IMG/VR virus record: IMGVR_UViG_3300023179_004149
Location: 62,001-126,000 of that record
Strand: one strand, 5' to 3'
DNA from: a virus
DNA: 64,000 nucleotides
Part shown: one piece after another, positions 1 to 37,684 of the stretch
Layout of the letters: each line of letters starts with the position of its first letter
How positions within the stretch are numbered: position 1 is the first letter of the stretch
Position numbers and translations under genes: made by a program
The notes under the pieces: generated by a model
The model's input: only the letters and a program-made list of their open reading frames with translations
Told to the model about the DNA's origin: nothing
Databases searched by the model: none

Positions 1-436
1 ACTCTAACATCTCAGACCTCATCTGGTTCACAGATATGATAAAGTTTTGTACTTTCTCCAGTACTTCATTGGTTGTAAACTTAAAATAGTTTAAATCATA
101 CAGGTGATTATAATGAGTACTTGATAATCCCTTAGCGAAATTATTGTCATTCACGTCGAATAACATGTAGCTATCAACATAGCCAACATACACACGGTTA
201 AATATGTCTCTGATTTCTTTGATCTTTTTTGTGCTGGTAAAGCGTACTATTATTACAGACTGACCCATGCTAAATCTAACAAGGGAATCGGAATTAATAA
301 CAGCGGATATACCGTGCCTAAAATTCTCTGGGTATCTACCCAAAAAGAATAACATATACTCTCGCTTACGGGACTTAGTAAGTTTCATCATATTTTCCCA
401 AATATGATACTTTAATTTAAAAAGTAGAAAATCCAT
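1..436 (-). CDS. Hypothetical protein, 3' end outside the window
   Basis: An open frame starts with ATG at 436-434 and stays open to the window edge, giving at least 145 residues. The ATG overlaps the TAA of the gp46 C-half gene by one base (TAATG), so it is probably translationally coupled to it. The protein starts MDFLLFKLKYHIWENMMKLT and is rich in basic and aromatic residues, with alternating hydrophobic stretches such as VIIVRF and no signal peptide or transmembrane helix. I do not recognise the family. In T4 the genes after 46 encode clamp and clamp-loader proteins, but nothing seen here shows that this is one of them. Confidence 0.75.
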   Translation of the reverse strand, partial: MDFLLFKLKYHIWENMMKLTKSRKREYMLFFLGRYPENFRHGISAVINSDSLVRFSMGQSVIIVRFTSTKKIKEIRDIFNRVYVGYVDSYMLFDVNDNNFAKGLSSTHYNHLYDLNYFKFTTNEVLEKVQNFIISVNQMRSEMLE

Positions 437-2682
437 TATATCGTGTCTATTAATGTTGAGATGTTATTTTCCTTTTTAACAAGAATTCTGTGGTCGGCCC
501 AATCTTGAATCAATGGATTATGACTGATAATCCAAATGTGTTCAAAGAACTGTTTGAGTTTTTCAAAAAACAGACCGACTTTTTCAAGGTTCTGGTTGGA
601 TACTTTTCCAGTAACTTCATCAAACACTATGATATTAGGTTTTGGTAATGAACATACTTTACTCAACACACATCTTAGTGCTAGAGAACTTACAGTTTTT
701 TCATACCCCGATCCCGCATTAATTGGTTTTTCAACACCTGTTTCGCTATCTACCATCCAGAACTCAACCTCACCCTTTTCATTCATGCGCATCTCAAGAA
801 CAAACTCACAACTATCAGCAAGAAGTATTTTAAGATGGCTATTAATGAGTGGTATCATAGTACTTAACACCATTTTAGAAATACCATTCTTACCGTAAAT
901 ATCCAAGTAAACCTTAAAAATGTGGTCTATCATTTCTTCGTTCTTCAACTCTTTGAGTAGTGCGTTATAACCCTCTATTTTACCATTAGCGGTCAGAATA
1001 TCTCTATCTGTTCCGTTTATTTGTAAAGATACGGTTTCTTTTTCTTCGTTCAAAGAATTCAAAGAGAATTTTATTTTTTGAATATCAGTATCTATTAACT
1101 GGTTCTTCTCAACCCTACTCTTTATATCTCTATAGTTCTTTAACTTCTCATTACCACGGATTAAGCTATCCTGATACGCTTTCAACTCTAAACGGCTTTT
1201 CTCAATTAATAAATTGTTCCTGTTATATAAATCCCAGGCTACTTTTGCTTTATCAAGACCCTCTATCTTAGTATTGGCTATTTTTATAATCTCTTGTGTT
1301 GTTTCAAGAGATTCGTTTTTCTCTTTGAGTGACGTTTCGTTTTTCTCGATTTCATCACTATGATCAACGTTGTCCAGTGCCCTTTTACAAGTCTGGCAAA
1401 TCTCACTATTCTTCAACATATCGATAGTGGCTTCAATCGTATGTATTTCCAGTTTGGTTTTTATCTCTCGTTCTGTATAATCTCGAAGCTCTCCTTTGAG
1501 AGTACCGTATAAATCAATATCATACTCAATTTTAGGTTCTGGCATAGCGTCGATAAGGTTTCTGATACTCTCTTCCTTATCTTTGATAAGAGATTCGAGT
1601 TTCTGTATACCAGTGATGATGTTTTCTTCGCTCGATTTGTATAATTCGGTATCGATATCGTTATATCGAGTTTTATATAATTTTTCTGATTCATCTGTCA
1701 ATTCGGTTATTTTGGTTTTTAGTTCGTTAAGTTTTGAGTTTAAACCAACTAACATACCTTGGTATTGTTTAATATGATCTTCTTCAAGCGTAATTTTAGC
1801 CATAATTTCTTGGCTATTGTTATAGTAAAGCTTTGATTTCTCTTTCCATTCTGTATATTTTTTCTTGGCTATCTTTTCTTTCTCACGGAAAAATTCAAGA
1901 CCTATAAACCTGGTTAATATCCTACCGCGCTCAGTTGGTTTGGTTTTAATTAAATCATCCAGATTATCACCCGTTGTTAAGATCGTAATCAAGAAATCAT
2001 CATAAGTACCAACATATGTTTTGATTAATTCATCGGTATACTTTCTTTGCTCACCATTTAATTGTTTTACGCCACCACGAGGTAAAACCTGATAAAAATC
2101 AACATCACCCTTACAAGTATGGGAACCATCTTTAGCTTTTTTTCTGGTTATTGTTCTTTTGATAATGTAGTCATCACCTTCAATCTCGACCTTACCCTTT
2201 ACCTCAACCAAATCAGAATCAAGGAATCTGTTAAAGACTTCCTCATTCTTATCTGTTTTGGTTGTAGTACCAAAAAATAAGAACAATAATAAGTCAACTG
2301 TCATAGTTGTGTTATGTGAAACAATACCATTAGTGTAATATTGCGCCACCTCGTCCACCTGAATATCATATAAATCACTTTTTTCCTCTAATAACTCAAC
2401 GCTCTTAACTAAACTCACACCATTAATTGTCTGTATGGGTTCACCAACCTTAAGAGTGTTAAGATTAATAAAGTGTCCATCCTCATGTTTCACTTTATGT
2501 AAATCAGCTCCCTCAACAACCATTGCATTTTCAAGTTCGCAACGATAAACATCAGCATTTTTTTCCGTAATACCGCACCATATTATGTCTTTATAACCAT
2601 AGGGTGTGTTTACCTTAATTCCAAGATTACCATATTTTTGATATAGCTCATTTAATTTACCAATCGTTATCTCTTTAATCAT
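436..2682 (-). CDS. 46: gp46-like recombination ATPase, C-terminal half, with split-intein C-part
   Basis: 748 residues. Residues 1-124 are the C-part of a split intein, ending YYTNGIVSHN followed by Thr125 as the +1 residue. From Thr125 on it is the body of an SbcC/Rad50-type ATPase (T4 gp46): TTMTVDLLLF completes Walker A, long coiled coils flank a CxxC zinc hook (CQTC, near residue 428), an ABC signature (AGSGYEK) follows, and then Walker B (IIVFDE, near 680) and a switch His (ISHNPL). The ATP-binding P-loop is missing here; it lies in the separate gene at 3750-4355. After trans-splicing the two halves would give about 796 residues. With gp47 it would resect DNA ends for recombination-dependent replication. 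The start at 2682 overlaps the end of the endonuclease gene by 8 bases. Confidence 0.93.
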   Translation of the reverse strand: MIKEITIGKLNELYQKYGNLGIKVNTPYGYKDIIWCGITEKNADVYRCELENAMVVEGADLHKVKHEDGHFINLNTLKVGEPIQTINGVSLVKSVELLEEKSDLYDIQVDEVAQYYTNGIVSHNTTMTVDLLLFLFFGTTTKTDKNEEVFNRFLDSDLVEVKGKVEIEGDDYIIKRTITRKKAKDGSHTCKGDVDFYQVLPRGGVKQLNGEQRKYTDELIKTYVGTYDDFLITILTTGDNLDDLIKTKPTERGRILTRFIGLEFFREKEKIAKKKYTEWKEKSKLYYNNSQEIMAKITLEEDHIKQYQGMLVGLNSKLNELKTKITELTDESEKLYKTRYNDIDTELYKSSEENIITGIQKLESLIKDKEESIRNLIDAMPEPKIEYDIDLYGTLKGELRDYTEREIKTKLEIHTIEATIDMLKNSEICQTCKRALDNVDHSDEIEKNETSLKEKNESLETTQEIIKIANTKIEGLDKAKVAWDLYNRNNLLIEKSRLELKAYQDSLIRGNEKLKNYRDIKSRVEKNQLIDTDIQKIKFSLNSLNEEKETVSLQINGTDRDILTANGKIEGYNALLKELKNEEMIDHIFKVYLDIYGKNGISKMVLSTMIPLINSHLKILLADSCEFVLEMRMNEKGEVEFWMVDSETGVEKPINAGSGYEKTVSSLALRCVLSKVCSLPKPNIIVFDEVTGKVSNQNLEKVGLFFEKLKQFFEHIWIISHNPLIQDWADHRILVKKENNISTLIDTI
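2311..2682 (-). mobile_element. Split intein, C-part (124 aa)
   Basis: Residues 1-124 of the downstream gp46 half. Visible are a block-B-like histidine region (LHKVKHEDGH, residues 61-70), a turn resembling LKVGEPI, a block F region (LYDIQVDEVAQYYTNG) and block G ending in His123-Asn124, followed by Thr125. No endonuclease domain is present. The length and order resemble atypical split inteins such as AceL-TerL, in which the split lies very early. The split position and family resemblance are inferred by eye. The terminal HN and the reconstituted Walker A are directly visible. Confidence 0.9.
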
Positions 2683-3688
2683 TTGTTTTTATATTTAAAA
2701 ATTGTAAACATTTTTTTATTGTTAATTCTTTATTTTTTCTATAATCAGAATCCCATATTGTCAACACCTCATAACCCTCATCAACCGCAGCCAACTTTTT
2801 AAATTCGTCTTGCTCTTGAATTTCTTTAGCTGTTAAATTTTTTCTAAAAGGATGTGGGTAATCATCTGGTTTATATTTCGAAGGGTTACCATGATAATCA
2901 TCGCCATTATACTCAATAATTTTTTTCATTTTAATATCAGCGAAATCATATAACCACAAACCACCATTTTTTTTATTTAATCTAATTTCTTTATTTTTAG
3001 TAGCGAAATAAACATGCTCTCTGTTCTTTATTTCATATTGTTCTAAAATTAAATAAAATAATTCTTGTGATATTTTAGAGTACCCTATTTTTAAATTACC
3101 GCCAGACGATAAAGATTTTTGCCAATCAATTTGTCGTTTATTAAAAATAAATTTACCTCTTTCCTCACCATGTTTTGCGACACATTTTTCAAGTGTAAAC
3201 GTTCTCTGTTGTTCGGATATTCTATCAATAGCCTCAGCCTCCGTTAAACCCCTTTTCATCCAATATTCCTTTTTTTTGGGGGAAGCATTACCTTCTTTTT
3301 GTTTTCTTTTCTGGTATTTTAATTTACCCACAATATCACCATATTTTTCAATAAACGCCCTTTCGGTATTCATTAAATGACATTCTATTTTAAATTTAGC
3401 TTCTTCTTTGGTAAAACCTTTATCTAGCCAATAATCAATATAAACTGGTTTAAATTTCTTGATTTTTAATTCCGCTTCATCTTTAGATAAACCTCGTTGA
3501 ATCCAATAATTTACCGAATAAGCCGAACCATTTGCAATAGTTATATTATTATCTTTTAATCGTTTTACTATAACTGATTCATCAACACCAAATTCTTTTG
3601 CTATTTTTTTCGTCGATTTTAATTCTTTAGTGTAATCGGTAATGATTTTTTCAACTTGTTCTGTAGTAAATTCATATTTTTTACCCAT
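2675..3688 (-). CDS. Free-standing EDxHD (Vsr-like) homing endonuclease
   Basis: 337 residues, placed between the two halves of the gp46 gene. Residues 5-50 look like a helix-turn-helix (TKKIAKEFGVDESVIVKRL). Three copies of a YWxxRGxxxxEAxxxI-type motif follow (about residues 61-78, 84-101 and 142-159). The C-terminal 120 residues form a Vsr/PD-(D/E)XK-like nuclease with IIEYNGDDYHGNP, matching the E...D-x-H pattern of the EDxHD family (I-Bth0305I). That family was described from fractured, split-intein genes in metagenomes. Its likely job is to cut phage genomes lacking the insertion so that the split intein spreads. It overlaps the downstream half by 8 bases, and its start is buried in an inverted repeat. 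It shows no sign of decay. Confidence 0.85.
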   Translation of the reverse strand: MGKKYEFTTEQVEKIITDYTKELKSTKKIAKEFGVDESVIVKRLKDNNITIANGSAYSVNYWIQRGLSKDEAELKIKKFKPVYIDYWLDKGFTKEEAKFKIECHLMNTERAFIEKYGDIVGKLKYQKRKQKEGNASPKKKEYWMKRGLTEAEAIDRISEQQRTFTLEKCVAKHGEERGKFIFNKRQIDWQKSLSSGGNLKIGYSKISQELFYLILEQYEIKNREHVYFATKNKEIRLNKKNGGLWLYDFADIKMKKIIEYNGDDYHGNPSKYKPDDYPHPFRKNLTAKEIQEQDEFKKLAAVDEGYEVLTIWDSDYRKNKELTIKKCLQFLNIKTND

Positions 3689-3715
3689 ATTTATAGTTTC
3701 TTTACTATAAATATG
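3686..3715 (-). promoter_or_regulatory. Perfect inverted repeat over the endonuclease start codon
   Basis: Twelve-base arms (3686-3697 and 3704-3715) flank a 6-base loop. On the coding strand the 5' arm is CATATTTATAGT and the 3' arm is ACTATAAATATG, whose last three bases are the ATG. A read-through transcript would hide the start codon in a hairpin. The 5' arm contains TATTTATA, the motif repeated before other transcription units. A transcript starting just after it would lack the 5' arm and leave the ATG free. Confidence 0.75.
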
Positions 3716-3749
3716 TCCAGCTAACTAAAAAGGTAAGGGTATTGAAAAA

Positions 3750-4355
3750 TTATTTTAATTCTTCGGGTATAAAACCCAACGTTTTCAATATATAATCCTC
3801 ATTATATTCAATTGTTATATTAGTATTTTCTTTAATACATTTACCGCCATAATTTGGCGGGTCGGATATTACCGACGTAATACCGTTTTTATTTTCATAT
3901 TTGAGTTTATTACCCGAACCATACGACAAGAAATTAGAGAATTCAATCTCTTTGATTTTAAATTTCTTATATCTATTAGTTTGTTCTTTGTAATTCTCTA
4001 ATTCGATATTTACTGAGTTGTCCAGTTTGATGAGATGGGCTGTGTTAATCTCAATGTTGTTATCGATCAAGTATTGTTCGATTAACTTCTTTTGGTAGTT
4101 TTCATCTAAAATAAGCTCAGAAGCGTCCGCTCCACCCTCAGCCACAAGTTCAGAGTTCTTGCTAATAATTGGCTTAAAAATAACTTTAACTTTATTGGTC
4201 TTATACCTGTTTTGAAAATATTTTTCAATTTCTTTTTCTTTTACTTGCGAATGATTATCTAACGTATCTTCCCATATAACTTTTATATAGTTGTTACTAT
4301 CATAAATATCGTCATTTTTGGGCTTAGATGTCGTATATGTCATTGTAGTTATCAT
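3750..4355 (-). CDS. 46: gp46-like recombination ATPase, N-terminal half, with split-intein N-part
   Basis: 201 residues. Residues 133-172 form the first strands and P-loop of an SbcC/gp46 ATPase: IKEIEFSNFLSYG followed by ISDPPNYGGK, where a lone ORF would need S/T after the Lys. Instead the chain continues with Cys173 and 28 further residues that end at a stop: the N-part of a split intein. Splicing to Thr125 of the downstream gene restores GGK-TT. The first 130 residues are a charged extension with no counterpart at the start of T4 gp46; I do not recognise it. The start at 4355 overlaps the preceding small gene by 32 bases; another ATG, four codons in, is possible. Confidence 0.9.
   Translation of the reverse strand: MITTMTYTTSKPKNDDIYDSNNYIKVIWEDTLDNHSQVKEKEIEKYFQNRYKTNKVKVIFKPIISKNSELVAEGGADASELILDENYQKKLIEQYLIDNNIEINTAHLIKLDNSVNIELENYKEQTNRYKKFKIKEIEFSNFLSYGSGNKLKYENKNGITSVISDPPNYGGKCIKENTNITIEYNEDYILKTLGFIPEELK
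3753..3839 (-). mobile_element. Split intein, N-part (29 aa)
   Basis: Residues 173-201 of the upstream gp46 half. It begins with the Cys1 nucleophile directly after the Walker A Lys172 and has the block A pattern C-x4-TNITIEYN. It ends after 29 residues, far shorter than the roughly 100 residues of canonical split inteins such as Npu DnaE or gp41-1. Atypical split inteins (AceL-TerL, about 25 residues) are the closest known design. Confidence 0.85.
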
Positions 4356-5827: not shown

Positions 5828-7555
5828 TTATTTTAATAATTTTAGTTTAAAATGGTCAATCAACATTTCAGCTTCGCGCTTCATGTATGCAACTGGAATT
5901 AATTTGAAAGTCTGAGAAAACTTATCCCAATAGAATAAACCAGCCCTATTAAACTTACGTCCAGTTTCTCTTTCGTACATTACACCATATACCGACAACT
6001 GTAATGTATAATCGTTGTACTGACAATGAGTCAAATGGTTTACTGGGAAATGTAAATATTCACCATAGGCATTCTCGTATTCAAATTTTTTATTTGTATT
6101 ATGTGTTTTAATATAATTTCTCGTCGCTAAATAAGTGTGATTTTTGCTTTCAACGGCCAAACATTTTGTTGGTACGGTATCTATTTTTTCTATTTTTTTA
6201 ACATATCTAAATTTCGATTTTTCTGTATCAGGTAAACAAATATCATTATAATTTTCCGTTTTACATAAAAAAGGATTCACACCGCCATGAGGTTTAAAAC
6301 AAACGTGAAGCGTCTTTATCTTTTTGTTATTACATGTTGTAAAAGCTTTTATTATTGTTGGTTTAAACCCTAACGAAGATATTAGTGTAGACATACCATC
6401 AGCTTGCCATTGTTGGGTTGTTATCATAACGCACCTGTCCCTTGTTTTATTATAATACCCGTCAGTATCCATAAACCCACGTAATAAATCTAACCTTTGT
6501 TGTTTGGATGCTCGTAAATATATATCAGGTATGTGTTTATTTTTTAATAACCCTAATTTATTTAACTTACCTCGTAAACCATAAATTGTTCTCGATTCGG
6601 CTAAACCACTTGAGCTGCCTGAAACATCTGAGCCTGTATCATACCCCCTATTTTTAAGTTCCTCCCAAATCATTTCGTTCATATTTGTCAAAACCCCACA
6701 GTCTTTTGAACCATCACCCAACCAAACCCCAAATACATAAGGGTCTATCGGTAACTCCAAATTTTTTTCCGTAATGACTTCGGTTGTTTCTATGCGTATG
6801 GGTTGTTTTTGTTTAAACATACCATATAAATCCTCTGTTGTTTTTATTACATTAGAATATTTATATTTTGATAATCTATTAGATATTTCCCATTTATGTT
6901 CGTGATCACAAATTATAGTATCATTTGTATCAAATGTTATTTTATAACATGGGTTATGGTGTATTTCCGATACATGTAATACTTTTGTTAAATTTCCTTC
7001 ACCATCAAAAATAACATCACCCACATTAATATCCGACATTAATTTAAAACCATCTTCTGTCGGTATTTCGGTATCAAGAGATAAACCTTTAAAATCCCAC
7101 ACATTAAATTTATCATAATCTAAGTCTTCGATAATATCGGATGTACCAGCAATACCAAGCTTATCATTAAACTCGTAAGACATGATATATTCTGGTTTTA
7201 AACGATCCGAATTAATCAAACTTAGTTTCTCGTCTGAACACACCTTTTTAAAAGCATTTAAAACCGTTTTTTCGTACTCATCCCTGGGAGAGTATATTCT
7301 ATGCGGCGCAAGTAAAAAGCGCTCTAAAATAGCGTGTAAATTAGTTCCGTATTCATTTGCAAGACGGTTGATTTCTCGCCATTCAGCAATCACCTCTTCT
7401 TTTGTTATTCCTTTTCTGTCCGCCACCCTCTGAGCGTGATAGTCTTCATCAAACTTTTCTTTGTACTTACCCAACATCGTGGTTACCGAAGTGTATTGCA
7501 TGTTTGGAAACTTGTCATTCACATAGGTGTGGGTTTCATGAATTAATTTTATCAT
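5828..7555 (-). CDS. PD-(D/E)XK exonuclease with class 3 intein
   Basis: 575 residues, of which 245 are extein (1-156 and 487-575). The extein is a RecB/Cas4-type PD-(D/E)XK nuclease: an N-terminal helix with GTNLHAILERF, then GIAGTSDIIED (Asp140) and NVWDFK (Asp154, Lys156), interrupted directly after the catalytic Lys156 and resuming with TNKKFEY. A later QLSVYGVMYER fits the QxxxY motif of exonuclease-type members. Splicing gives WDFKTNKK. It probably degrades or trims DNA ends in replication or recombination. It lies between the primase and the cupin/gp47 genes with gaps of 2-3 bases, so co-expression is likely. Unspliced protein should be inactive. Confidence 0.88.
   Translation of the reverse strand: MIKLIHETHTYVNDKFPNMQYTSVTTMLGKYKEKFDEDYHAQRVADRKGITKEEVIAEWREINRLANEYGTNLHAILERFLLAPHRIYSPRDEYEKTVLNAFKKVCSDEKLSLINSDRLKPEYIMSYEFNDKLGIAGTSDIIEDLDYDKFNVWDFKGLSLDTEIPTEDGFKLMSDINVGDVIFDGEGNLTKVLHVSEIHHNPCYKITFDTNDTIICDHEHKWEISNRLSKYKYSNVIKTTEDLYGMFKQKQPIRIETTEVITEKNLELPIDPYVFGVWLGDGSKDCGVLTNMNEMIWEELKNRGYDTGSDVSGSSSGLAESRTIYGLRGKLNKLGLLKNKHIPDIYLRASKQQRLDLLRGFMDTDGYYNKTRDRCVMITTQQWQADGMSTLISSLGFKPTIIKAFTTCNNKKIKTLHVCFKPHGGVNPFLCKTENYNDICLPDTEKSKFRYVKKIEKIDTVPTKCLAVESKNHTYLATRNYIKTHNTNKKFEYENAYGEYLHFPVNHLTHCQYNDYTLQLSVYGVMYERETGRKFNRAGLFYWDKFSQTFKLIPVAYMKREAEMLIDHFKLKLLK
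6098..7087 (-). mobile_element. Class 3 intein with LAGLIDADG endonuclease (330 aa)
   Basis: Residues 157-486 of the nuclease gene. Block A reads GLSLDTEIPT: position 1 is Gly, not Cys or Ser. The class 3 W-C-T triad is present: Trp222 in block B (DHEHKWEIS), Cys465 in block F (TKCLAVES) and Thr484 in block G (KTHN). The end is His485-Asn486, followed by Thr487. Two LAGLIDADG motifs are seen (VFGVWLGDG near 274-282, LLRGFMDTDG 357-366). In class 3 inteins the block F Cys starts splicing, so the missing N-terminal nucleophile does not imply inactivity. Confidence 0.88.
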
Positions 7556-34735: not shown

Positions 34736-37684
34736 TTATTTAACCTCACATCCAGACGCTCCGCAGGCTAACTCACCTGTAAGGTCCGTATTATCATCGA
34801 ATTCAATTACCTTTGATAAATCTATATTGGTTAATGATTTCATCATCCCATCATACTGTTCCTTTGTACAGTCGGAAAACGGTGCCTGAATGTAACTACC
34901 ACCATCATAAGGTAATACTGATAAACCATTGTAAAACTCTTTATTTTCCCACATCCATAAACCAACAAGATCCCATTCGTTTTCTTTAATGTTAATTGTT
35001 GCCGATACGTTATGTGTGTTTTCACCTTTTCTGTGACCAGTTCTGATCCATTCCTTACTTACCTTTTTAACCCTTTCCAAAGTAGAAATAGCTGATTCGG
35101 TTCTTAAGATTGAATCTTTTGGTGCCATCTGTGGTACGCTGATTACAGCCGTATCGTGTGGGCGGAAGTACTCGTCTTCAACCAATTCTGGATGGTATGT
35201 TGCCAAGTAATAATAAATCGCTTCATTCTTACCAACACGGATTCTACGTATATAGTAATCGTTGTGCCAAGCGTGGATACCAGATGATGTACCAAGAACC
35301 AATGAAGATGTGCCCGATGGTTTAACTGTTGTTGATCTCGCAGCTGCATTTATACCTATTAAAGCAGCAACACGTGCGTTTTCTTCTTTTACGATATTAG
35401 CGGCTTCAACCATATCATATTCAAGTACAACACCTGAACCAATACCAGTCATGCCAACACCTATTAGGGCCTCTTTTTCGGTTGTTCTCTTCCATATCTC
35501 ACGTAAGTAATGGAAGTCAGTATAACCAGCCTGTAATGTACCTATAAACGCAGCGGCTTTAACTCTTTCGTTGTAATCCTCTTGTGAAACAATATCTGAA
35601 ACATTTACCTCAGTCAAATTACAAAATTGATTTGGTCTTAACGAAATTTCACAATTATGAGCTGAGACACCATTTAAATCAAATTCATGTACATCATCGA
35701 CAGTTACATCATAAACATCCTCAACAGCATCAACTTCAATCGATATAATTTCATCATAAAATCGTGTTCTATTGTATTTCCTCTTATATCCAGATAAAAT
35801 AGTTTTTAATTTATTTTTTTTAATTGGTTCATCAAAACCAATAATTTGATTATATATTTGAATATTATCGTTACTAATAATTAATTCAAATAACTCTTTA
35901 CAGAAATAATCGGATTTAGAACCTTTACCGTTTGGTAGTGATTTAAATTTTTCATTACTCCTTTTAAAAATTGAAGATACTATACCAAACCTAATTAATA
36001 TTCTTTGTACCCTTTTCAAAAGATTTTCATCAGCTTGTGTGAGTCTAATAGAATAACCTTTTATAAAATTACCCTGAACAGACCCGTCAGCATCAAATAA
36101 CCCTCTTAATAAACCCTGTAAAAAAACGTAAGAGGCGCTTTCTATTTTATCCGTTATTTTCTTATTACCATAAATAACATCGAACTTATTGGCTAACTTA
36201 CTAATGCCAACACATTTGATTCTTTTTTTATCATAATTGGTTATGTCTTGAATTTGTAGATCTGACCTGTGATCAACATTATCGATAATTCTTTTATAAG
36301 CTATTTCAGACATAACATCTTTAGTTTCACCCCAAAAATCAAGTGAACTATCGTTGATTGTCATAGCACCATCACCTATTAACGAACCTAAAATCCAACC
36401 CTCATCAAAACTACCATTGCCAGACCACTTATGTATATCTCTATGGTTTGAAAGTGATATTTTATCACCTATTTTCAAATCTTTTAATTCTTTCCATTCA
36501 TTAAGTAATAATTTTCTTGTTAATTTAGAAATATATTTTAACTTATGATCATTAGTTATTCTAAATTGGTATCCCTTTTTAGTAGTGACTTTATATAATT
36601 GTTTCGTTCCCGTTTTCCAAAAACCGTTCGATAACGTATTATACATTTTACCATTACTAACACAATTAAAATTAGTATTTACCAAATCAGTTACTAATTT
36701 AGCCCCAGTATCTGTCATAACCCACGAATCACCAGCCACACAGCATGGATTGGTTCCGAGACTCTTATCATTTGTAAAAAAAATACCTGGCTCACCTGAA
36801 CCTGATAATTCAATTCGTTTCCATAAATCATCAAAAAAATCTTTTGTTATACGGTGTCTTAATAAGACAGCCGAATTGTTAGCGCGACCTCTCTGTGGAT
36901 TAGATTCCCACCATTCGCCAGACTTACATGAGATCATCTCATCATCATCAGCGGAGAATAAACAAATTAACGCGGCCCTACGAATACCACCAGCTAAAAC
37001 AGCGTCGGCAATATAACAAACCATATCATGCACTTCTATCGAAGTTAATCTGTCACCATCATTTTTACTATCTAAAATCTTTTTTACGTTATGGATACAG
37101 TCTTTTAATGGTTGAGGGCCTGGTGCCTTACCACCAGATGTTATTAATCTAGCTCCCTTTGGTCGTATATCAGAATAATCAAATTGTGGTGTTGATGTTA
37201 TATCGCCAGTATACGATTTAAATAATACCTTAATTGCATCAGCCCAACCTTCAATAGAATCATTTATTAAAAACCTTCTGTTTCTATCCGCTTTTGGTTT
37301 ACGTATATCGGGTAATTTCTCAATATCATGTTTCTGTACTGAATAACCAACACCAGTACCACCCAATAATAAAAACATTATCTCAGCAAATGTATCGATA
37401 TGGTCTATTGGGGTGTAAGCACAATTAAATATCCTATTAGGTGATATTTCGATTGGTTTGCCGCCGAATTGAAGTGATCTCATGGAAGGTAGTACCTTCT
37501 TGTTATAAACCATCTGGTAGTTTTTTATTATCTCGTCTTTCAACATTGGATACTTTTTAATGTGCATATCCATGTTCCTGGTTACTAATTCATTCCAGGT
37601 CTCTCTTCGTTTCTCATCTGGAAGATACTTGGCGTACTTCATGTACACCGTAATTTCGCTTAAAATCTCTTGTGATAAATCCAT
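34736..37684 (-). CDS. nrdJ: Class II (B12-dependent) ribonucleoside-triphosphate reductase with intein
   Basis: 982 residues, of which 619 are extein. It reduces ribonucleotides to deoxynucleotides for phage DNA synthesis. Visible are FLLLGGTGVGYSVQ (residues 104-117), RIFNCAYTP (Cys88), the active-site NPC (Asn312, Cys314), interrupted by the intein and resuming CEI (Glu679), RPNQFCNL (Cys688, the partner of Cys88), KPSGTSSLVLG, and a C-terminal CGASGC redox pair (Cys974, Cys979). The length and motif order match monomeric adenosylcobalamin-dependent RTPR (about 740 residues in Lactobacillus), a little shorter. It has its own upstream motif and terminator, so it is probably a single-gene transcript. 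No small-subunit gene is in the window. Confidence 0.9.
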   Translation of the reverse strand: MDLSQEILSEITVYMKYAKYLPDEKRRETWNELVTRNMDMHIKKYPMLKDEIIKNYQMVYNKKVLPSMRSLQFGGKPIEISPNRIFNCAYTPIDHIDTFAEIMFLLLGGTGVGYSVQKHDIEKLPDIRKPKADRNRRFLINDSIEGWADAIKVLFKSYTGDITSTPQFDYSDIRPKGARLITSGGKAPGPQPLKDCIHNVKKILDSKNDGDRLTSIEVHDMVCYIADAVLAGGIRRAALICLFSADDDEMISCKSGEWWESNPQRGRANNSAVLLRHRITKDFFDDLWKRIELSGSGEPGIFFTNDKSLGTNPCCVAGDSWVMTDTGAKLVTDLVNTNFNCVSNGKMYNTLSNGFWKTGTKQLYKVTTKKGYQFRITNDHKLKYISKLTRKLLLNEWKELKDLKIGDKISLSNHRDIHKWSGNGSFDEGWILGSLIGDGAMTINDSSLDFWGETKDVMSEIAYKRIIDNVDHRSDLQIQDITNYDKKRIKCVGISKLANKFDVIYGNKKITDKIESASYVFLQGLLRGLFDADGSVQGNFIKGYSIRLTQADENLLKRVQRILIRFGIVSSIFKRSNEKFKSLPNGKGSKSDYFCKELFELIISNDNIQIYNQIIGFDEPIKKNKLKTILSGYKRKYNRTRFYDEIISIEVDAVEDVYDVTVDDVHEFDLNGVSAHNCEISLRPNQFCNLTEVNVSDIVSQEDYNERVKAAAFIGTLQAGYTDFHYLREIWKRTTEKEALIGVGMTGIGSGVVLEYDMVEAANIVKEENARVAALIGINAAARSTTVKPSGTSSLVLGTSSGIHAWHNDYYIRRIRVGKNEAIYYYLATYHPELVEDEYFRPHDTAVISVPQMAPKDSILRTESAISTLERVKKVSKEWIRTGHRKGENTHNVSATINIKENEWDLVGLWMWENKEFYNGLSVLPYDGGSYIQAPFSDCTKEQYDGMMKSLTNIDLSKVIEFDDNTDLTGELACGASGCEVK
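35654..36742 (-). mobile_element. Class 1 intein in nrdJ, with LAGLIDADG endonuclease (363 aa)
   Basis: Residues 315-677. It begins CVAGDSWVMTDTG (Cys1 nucleophile) and has a block B His380 (ITNDHKLKY). It ends FDLNGVSAHN (His676-Asn677), followed by Cys678 as the +1 residue. Two LAGLIDADG motifs are present (GWILGSLIGDG, about 429-439; LLRGLFDADG, 525-534), so it is a full homing intein. It sits between catalytic Cys314 and Glu679, a site used by several ribonucleotide reductase inteins. Confidence 0.93.

Follow-up and report, generated by a model that had tools for sequence, protein, structure and literature searches.

We propose that the gene for a PD-(D/E)XK exonuclease in a jumbo phage genome carries a mobile class 3 intein within the active-site motif of the encoded protein, that this intein would splice via Cys465 and spread by LAGLIDADG homing, and that the glycine at its first position has no catalytic role, a reading to which we give a probability of about 0.92. 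The window, by which we mean the whole stretch of 64,000 nucleotides that was analysed, covers positions 62001-126000 of a 320,934-bp IMG/VR virus record (G000:C1), and the features discussed are collected in Table 1. By all sequence criteria and by its predicted fold, the assignment of the insert to class 3 is well supported. The single find is ordinary, as it represents a further class 3 example at a known kind of site, and together with its relatives it corrects the view of class 3 as rare and of Gly1 as unusual.

Table 1. Features of the exonuclease intein and other intein loci of the virus record. Positions are those of the window unless a locus is given; several host protein names of the other inteins were assigned by eye from sequence and not by family search.
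Feature	Position	Strand	Basis or details
Precursor gene, PD-(D/E)XK (RecB/Cas4-like) exonuclease plus intein, 575 aa	5828..7555	minus	ORF; family matches of spliced sequence
N-extein, residues 1-156 (...GTSDII...NVWDFK), with the acidic motif and, at -1, the lysine of (D/E)xK	7088..7555	minus	empty-site orthologues L008-L014
Class 3 intein, residues 157-486, 330 aa, Gly1 ... Thr-His-Asn	6098..7087	minus	empty site, alignment, profile, AlphaFold model
C-extein, residues 487-575 plus stop, begins TNKKFEYEN	5828..6097	minus	empty-site orthologues
Gly157, intein residue 1, not a nucleophile	7085..7087	minus	position check; Gly1 in 34/38 same-site inteins
Block B, His220 (B:10)-Lys-Trp222 (B:12)	6890..6898	minus	alignment, position check
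LAGLIDADG homing endonuclease core (approximate limits), Asp281 and Asp365	6302..6754	minus	weak LAGLIDADG_3 match, profile, alignment, fold
Cys465 (F:4), predicted initiating nucleophile	6161..6163	minus	unchanged in every relative in which the block can be seen
Block G, Thr484 (G:5), His485, Asn486 (terminal, for cyclisation)	6098..6106	minus	alignment, position check
Thr487, +1 residue, predicted second branch point	6095..6097	minus	alignment, position check
SbcC split intein, whole locus	436-4355	minus	
SbcC intein N-half, 29 aa, ends ORF	3750-4355	minus	GGK|CIKENTNITIEYNEDYILKTLGFIPEELK
Separate endonuclease-like ORF between SbcC halves	2675-3688	minus	by eye similar to Vsr/PD-(D/E)XK types
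SbcC intein C-half, starts ORF	436-2682	minus	...SHN|TTMTVD
NrdA (ribonucleotide reductase large subunit), apparent class 1 intein, LAGLIDADG	34736-37684	minus	NPC|CVAGDSW ... VSAHN|CEISLRP
SNF2 helicase with W-C-T intein, Cys1	L035 647-3535 (G000:C1 about 135.2-138.1 kb); intein at about 135.7-136.9 kb		
TerL split intein	L295 218-3638 (G000:C1 about 174.7-178.1 kb)		30-aa N-part, 37-bp gap only
TerL second, cis intein	L295		DD|CLKEG ... VVHN|CIMAL
PhoH-like protein, two class 3 inteins			Ala1 and Pro1
AAA ATPase, class 1 intein			
Prohead-protease-like protein, intein			
UvrD-like helicase, intein			
Nucleotidyltransferase-like protein, intein			

Boundaries of the Intein and Its Host Gene

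Relatives of the exonuclease protein are encoded at eight IMG/VR loci, of which seven (L008-L014) are without the intein. Matches by tblastn to the seven intein-less orthologues stop exactly at residues 156 and 487, which fixes both intein boundaries and shows that the insert is sporadic, and the ends that the sequence-only reading had given for it on the minus strand are right to the base. The gene in L008 is 86% identical at the DNA level, and its extein join (TTTAAA|ACAAAT) has no extra base and no scar. The precise in-frame insertion, the empty allele and a HINT fold identify the insert as an intein, that is, a mobile protein-splicing element. When nucleotide identity near the insertion site was compared between L008 and the window it did not clearly rise, and hence no recent co-conversion tract is evident between the two. 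The insertion point lies between the lysine of the (D/E)xK sequence (DFK) and the threonine that follows, inside the PD-(D/E)XK active-site motif.

Once joined, the exteins form a protein of 245 residues that matches PDDEXK_1 above the cut-off (E 2.2e-6) as well as phrog_298, a family of phage exonucleases (E 1.6e-22), and these family matches, with the D...(D/E)xK motif, confirm the PD-(D/E)XK nuclease that had been named as the host protein. The neighbouring genes are also of DNA metabolism and encode SbcC/SbcD-like nuclease subunits, a DNA primase and a RuvC-like resolvase. A GIY-YIG endonuclease-like gene is present near the RuvC-like gene in L008 (2627-3364); none was observed at the corresponding spot of the window.

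Catalytic Residues and Class Assignment

The residue position check agrees with the earlier placement of Gly157 at position 1 of block A and of Trp222, Cys465 and Thr484 as the W-C-T triad. The intein thus combines a residue 1 that is not a nucleophile with Trp B:12, Cys F:4 and Thr G:5, and the companion residues of class 3 are present as well (His B:10, the penultimate His485, the terminal Asn486 and Thr at +1), all of which match the published signature of the class (PMC5222942, PMC7891396). In an alignment-profile search, the class 3 DnaB inteins 6rix, 6bs8 and 6riy are the best matches (E ~1e-38 to 1e-39), compared with E ~4e-13 for PI-SceI and E 1.7e-13 for the class 1 intein gp41-1. Alignment with class 3 inteins had been proposed as a check on the assignment, and it retains the W-C-T residues and puts the DnaB class 3 structures at the top. 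Common descent with class 3 inteins is indicated by these profile E-values and by the place of the intein among 180 W-C-T sequences, in a tree built from class 3 inteins. A chance motif match is ruled out by the exact empty site, the profile E-value of ~1e-39 and the occurrence of W-C-T in 180 of 180 sequences.

A glycine at residue 1 would also suit a class 2 intein, as members of that class likewise have no nucleophile there, but the known ones are all KlbA orthologues that have Cys at +1 and in which F:4 is Asp and G:6 is Ser (PMC4031507), whereas the intein in the window has Thr, Cys and His at these positions and groups with class 3. Class 2 membership is therefore extremely improbable. 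Alternatively, the intein could be dead or decaying, with splicing lost and the gene either inactive or yielding cleavage products only. A pseudogene intein of the W-C-T lineage is indeed known, Arth_1007 of Arthrobacter, although it is without both Cys F:4 and His B:10 (PMC3196547). In the window the frame is open, none of the catalytic residues and neither of the endonuclease aspartates has been lost, and the extein shares 95% identity with an orthologue that has no insert; we consider such decay very unlikely and reject a pseudo-intein on the grounds that all catalytic residues are intact.

Endonuclease Domain and Predicted Fold

The class 3 intein of the window contains two LAGLIDADG motifs, WLGDG (Asp281) and FMDTDG (Asp365). 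Both catalytic acidic residues are kept, and together with the profile and fold matches to PI-SceI they identify the domain as a LAGLIDADG homing endonuclease. This intact two-motif endonuclease was absent from the sequence-only reading. The Pfam match to the endonuclease (a weak LAGLIDADG_3) and that to the splicing domain are both under the cut-off, and Pfam and NCBIfam by themselves did not suffice to recognise the intein; the domains are therefore assigned from the alignment profile and the predicted fold. An AlphaFold2 model of the intein, built on an alignment of 54 relatives, has a pLDDT of 92.7 and a pTM of 0.90, and its predicted architecture is HINT plus LAGLIDADG. The best fold match found by Foldseek is PI-SceI (E 3.5e-17), over both the splicing and the endonuclease domains, while the splicing domain matches the class 3 DnaB inteins 6bs8, 6riy and 6rix. 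The intein is probably mobile.

Proposed Splicing and Mobility

The order of splicing steps for the intein in the window is one that we infer by homology with class 3 members. After the HINT domain has folded within the precursor, Cys465, aided by His220, Thr484 and Trp222, would attack the Lys156-Gly157 bond to give the block F branched intermediate, from which the N-extein would pass to Thr487; Asn486 would then cyclise, and the joined exteins would form the active nuclease of 245 residues. For other class 3 inteins it has been established by experiment that changing Cys F:4 to Ala abolishes both splicing and cleavage (PMC5222942). Gly1 would play no catalytic role in this scheme and would be inherited within the family of inteins at the same DxK|T site. 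Mobility would be provided by the LAGLIDADG domain, which would cut an intein-less allele in a co-infecting phage, with repair then copying the intein in.

It is also conceivable that the intein is competent in splicing and has been kept as more than a mobile element, namely as a conditional switch of the nuclease that senses redox state or metals via Cys465. The intein does block the active-site motif of the nuclease, and redox and zinc control has been reported for mycobacterial class 3 DnaB inteins (PMC6195587, PMC7360933). Such a switch nevertheless appears unlikely here, as the insert is sporadic and is absent from the close relative L008 and from six other near orthologues, and sporadic presence together with an intact endonuclease is what a selfish element predicts.

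Distribution of Class 3 and Closest Known Systems

As of 2020, 1701 class 3 inteins had been found in nr, 82.5% of them with a LAGLIDADG endonuclease (PMC7891396), and class 3 inteins in mycobacteriophage RecB/Cas4-like PD-(D/E)XK exonucleases, inserted within the PD-(D/E)XK motif, were described in 2016 (PMC5050341). Two scans in the present analysis gave at least 575 and at least 535 confirmed class 3 relatives, and among the matches listed the hosts include Actinomycetota, Bacillota, Methanobrevibacter, Acidobacteria and others. Terminase class 3 inteins also occur in T4-like phages of the Straboviridae and Kyanoviridae, for example Krischvirus ELT3 and Kyanoviridae B23. Class 3 is thus spread over numerous bacterial phyla, and its description as rare and as mostly reported from mycobacteriophages and actinobacterial DnaB does not hold against these data, and we dropped the idea of a rare or purely actinobacterial class. 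The novelty claimed for the exonuclease intein likewise fails.

The mycobacteriophage RecB-like/Cas4 inteins (PMC5050341), such as those of Traft412 (L017) and ScoobyDoobyDoo (L022), resemble the intein in the window in the W-C-T triad, the LAGLIDADG domain, the PD-(D/E)XK host protein and the insertion at (D/E)xK, and they differ from it in phage lineage and host and in sequence, with ~35% identity or less; Traft412 shares Gly1 whereas ScoobyDoobyDoo has Ala1. The exonuclease inteins of Streptomyces phage Frankenweenie (gp79, L016) and of the human faecal phage MT835539 (L015) share the site (DxK|G ... THN|T), Gly1 and W-C-T at 36-38% identity, and their records do not describe them as inteins. 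The nearest relative group is that of IMG/VR contig 3300033552_000001 (L007/L137), which is ~52% identical, has the same site and Gly1, and has a more divergent extein. The DnaB inteins of Mycobacterium smegmatis and M. chimaera (6bs8, 6rix, 6riy) have the HINT fold and W-C-T in common with the intein in the window but are mini-inteins without an endonuclease, with Ala1 and Ser+1. PI-SceI, the VMA intein, likewise combines HINT and LAGLIDADG but is a class 1 intein with Cys1 in a yeast ATPase.

Variation at Intein Residue 1

A comparison set of 182 class 3 sequences was assembled from phages, viral contigs and genomes, and each of the 180 whose blocks are visible has the full W-C-T triad. Residue 1 is Ala in 113 of the 182, Gly in 43, Pro in 9, Gln in 5, Arg in 3, His in 2 and Leu in 2, with five other residues found once each. 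At the DxK|T exonuclease site, as assigned by the DxK motif, Gly1 is present in 34 of 38 distinct inteins (the others being Ala in two, His in one and Cys in one), and the tree group of 33 leaves that includes the intein in the window (support 0.91) consists entirely of DxK|T-site inteins. PDDEXK_1 was found in five of eight other exteins at this site that were run against Pfam, and those of L016 and L017 bear the annotation Cas4 exonuclease. Gly1 is hence the norm at this site, and the suggestion that a Gly1 member in such a phage would extend the class is not supported. We regard Gly1 as non-catalytic and inherited within the same-site family, although its near-constancy could instead represent a structural preference.

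The only Cys1 among the 38 is in L179 (NWK|CLALDT ... THN|T), which has the full W-C-T and an unusually long N-side open frame of 547 residues. Two other class 3 inteins, L216 and L229, from Actinoallomurus and a Paceibacterota MAG, have replaced the penultimate His by Cys (TCN rather than THN).

A sister family at a site in SNF2 helicases, represented by 80 viral loci (L055-L134) and by the phage of the window, has Ala, Phe, Cys, Met, Gly, Ser or Leu at residue 1, with at least 21 changes by parsimony among 55 distinct sequences and at least six between Cys and non-Cys. His B:10, Cys F:4, Thr G:5 and the following His and Asn are invariant in this family, and the Trp is replaced by Phe only, in three members. 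Cys1 occurs in 13 of the 76 in which the residue is visible, including the copy in the phage of the window, so that one phage combines an exonuclease intein with Gly1 and an SNF2 helicase intein with Cys1. As residue 1 varies while the catalytic positions are fixed, some W-C-T inteins have Cys1, and a class 3 filter based on the absence of Cys1 would lose them. The set amounts to a natural mutagenesis of intein residue 1, and this variation points to a non-catalytic position 1.

More tentatively, and with considerable doubt, position 1 of W-C-T inteins may alternate between nucleophile (Cys, Ser) and non-nucleophile, with the Cys1 forms keeping or regaining the class 1 first step beside Cys F:4. 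If so, the Cys1 W-C-T inteins would be natural intermediates between class 1 and class 3. It has been argued that class 3 could not arise stepwise from class 1, and such intermediates would run counter to that argument. The Cys1 forms are thus test cases for the mechanistic relation of the two classes.

Other Inteins of the Phage Record

The description of the virus as T4-like is right only in a loose sense, as the closest T4-like cyanophage sequences share no more than 35% identity with its TerL, over 68% of the N-terminal part, and its DnaB is ~26% identical to those of mixed phages. Searches of the record located at least 12 inteins, which include class 1 and class 3 members and two that are split, and more may exist. 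Up to three inteins have been reported for crAss-like Zeta phages (PMC7886860), and at least 12 in one phage is an unusual concentration. The sbcC gene of L008 is uninterrupted at the position of the split intein. A free-standing LAGLIDADG gene is also present near 303 kb of the record.
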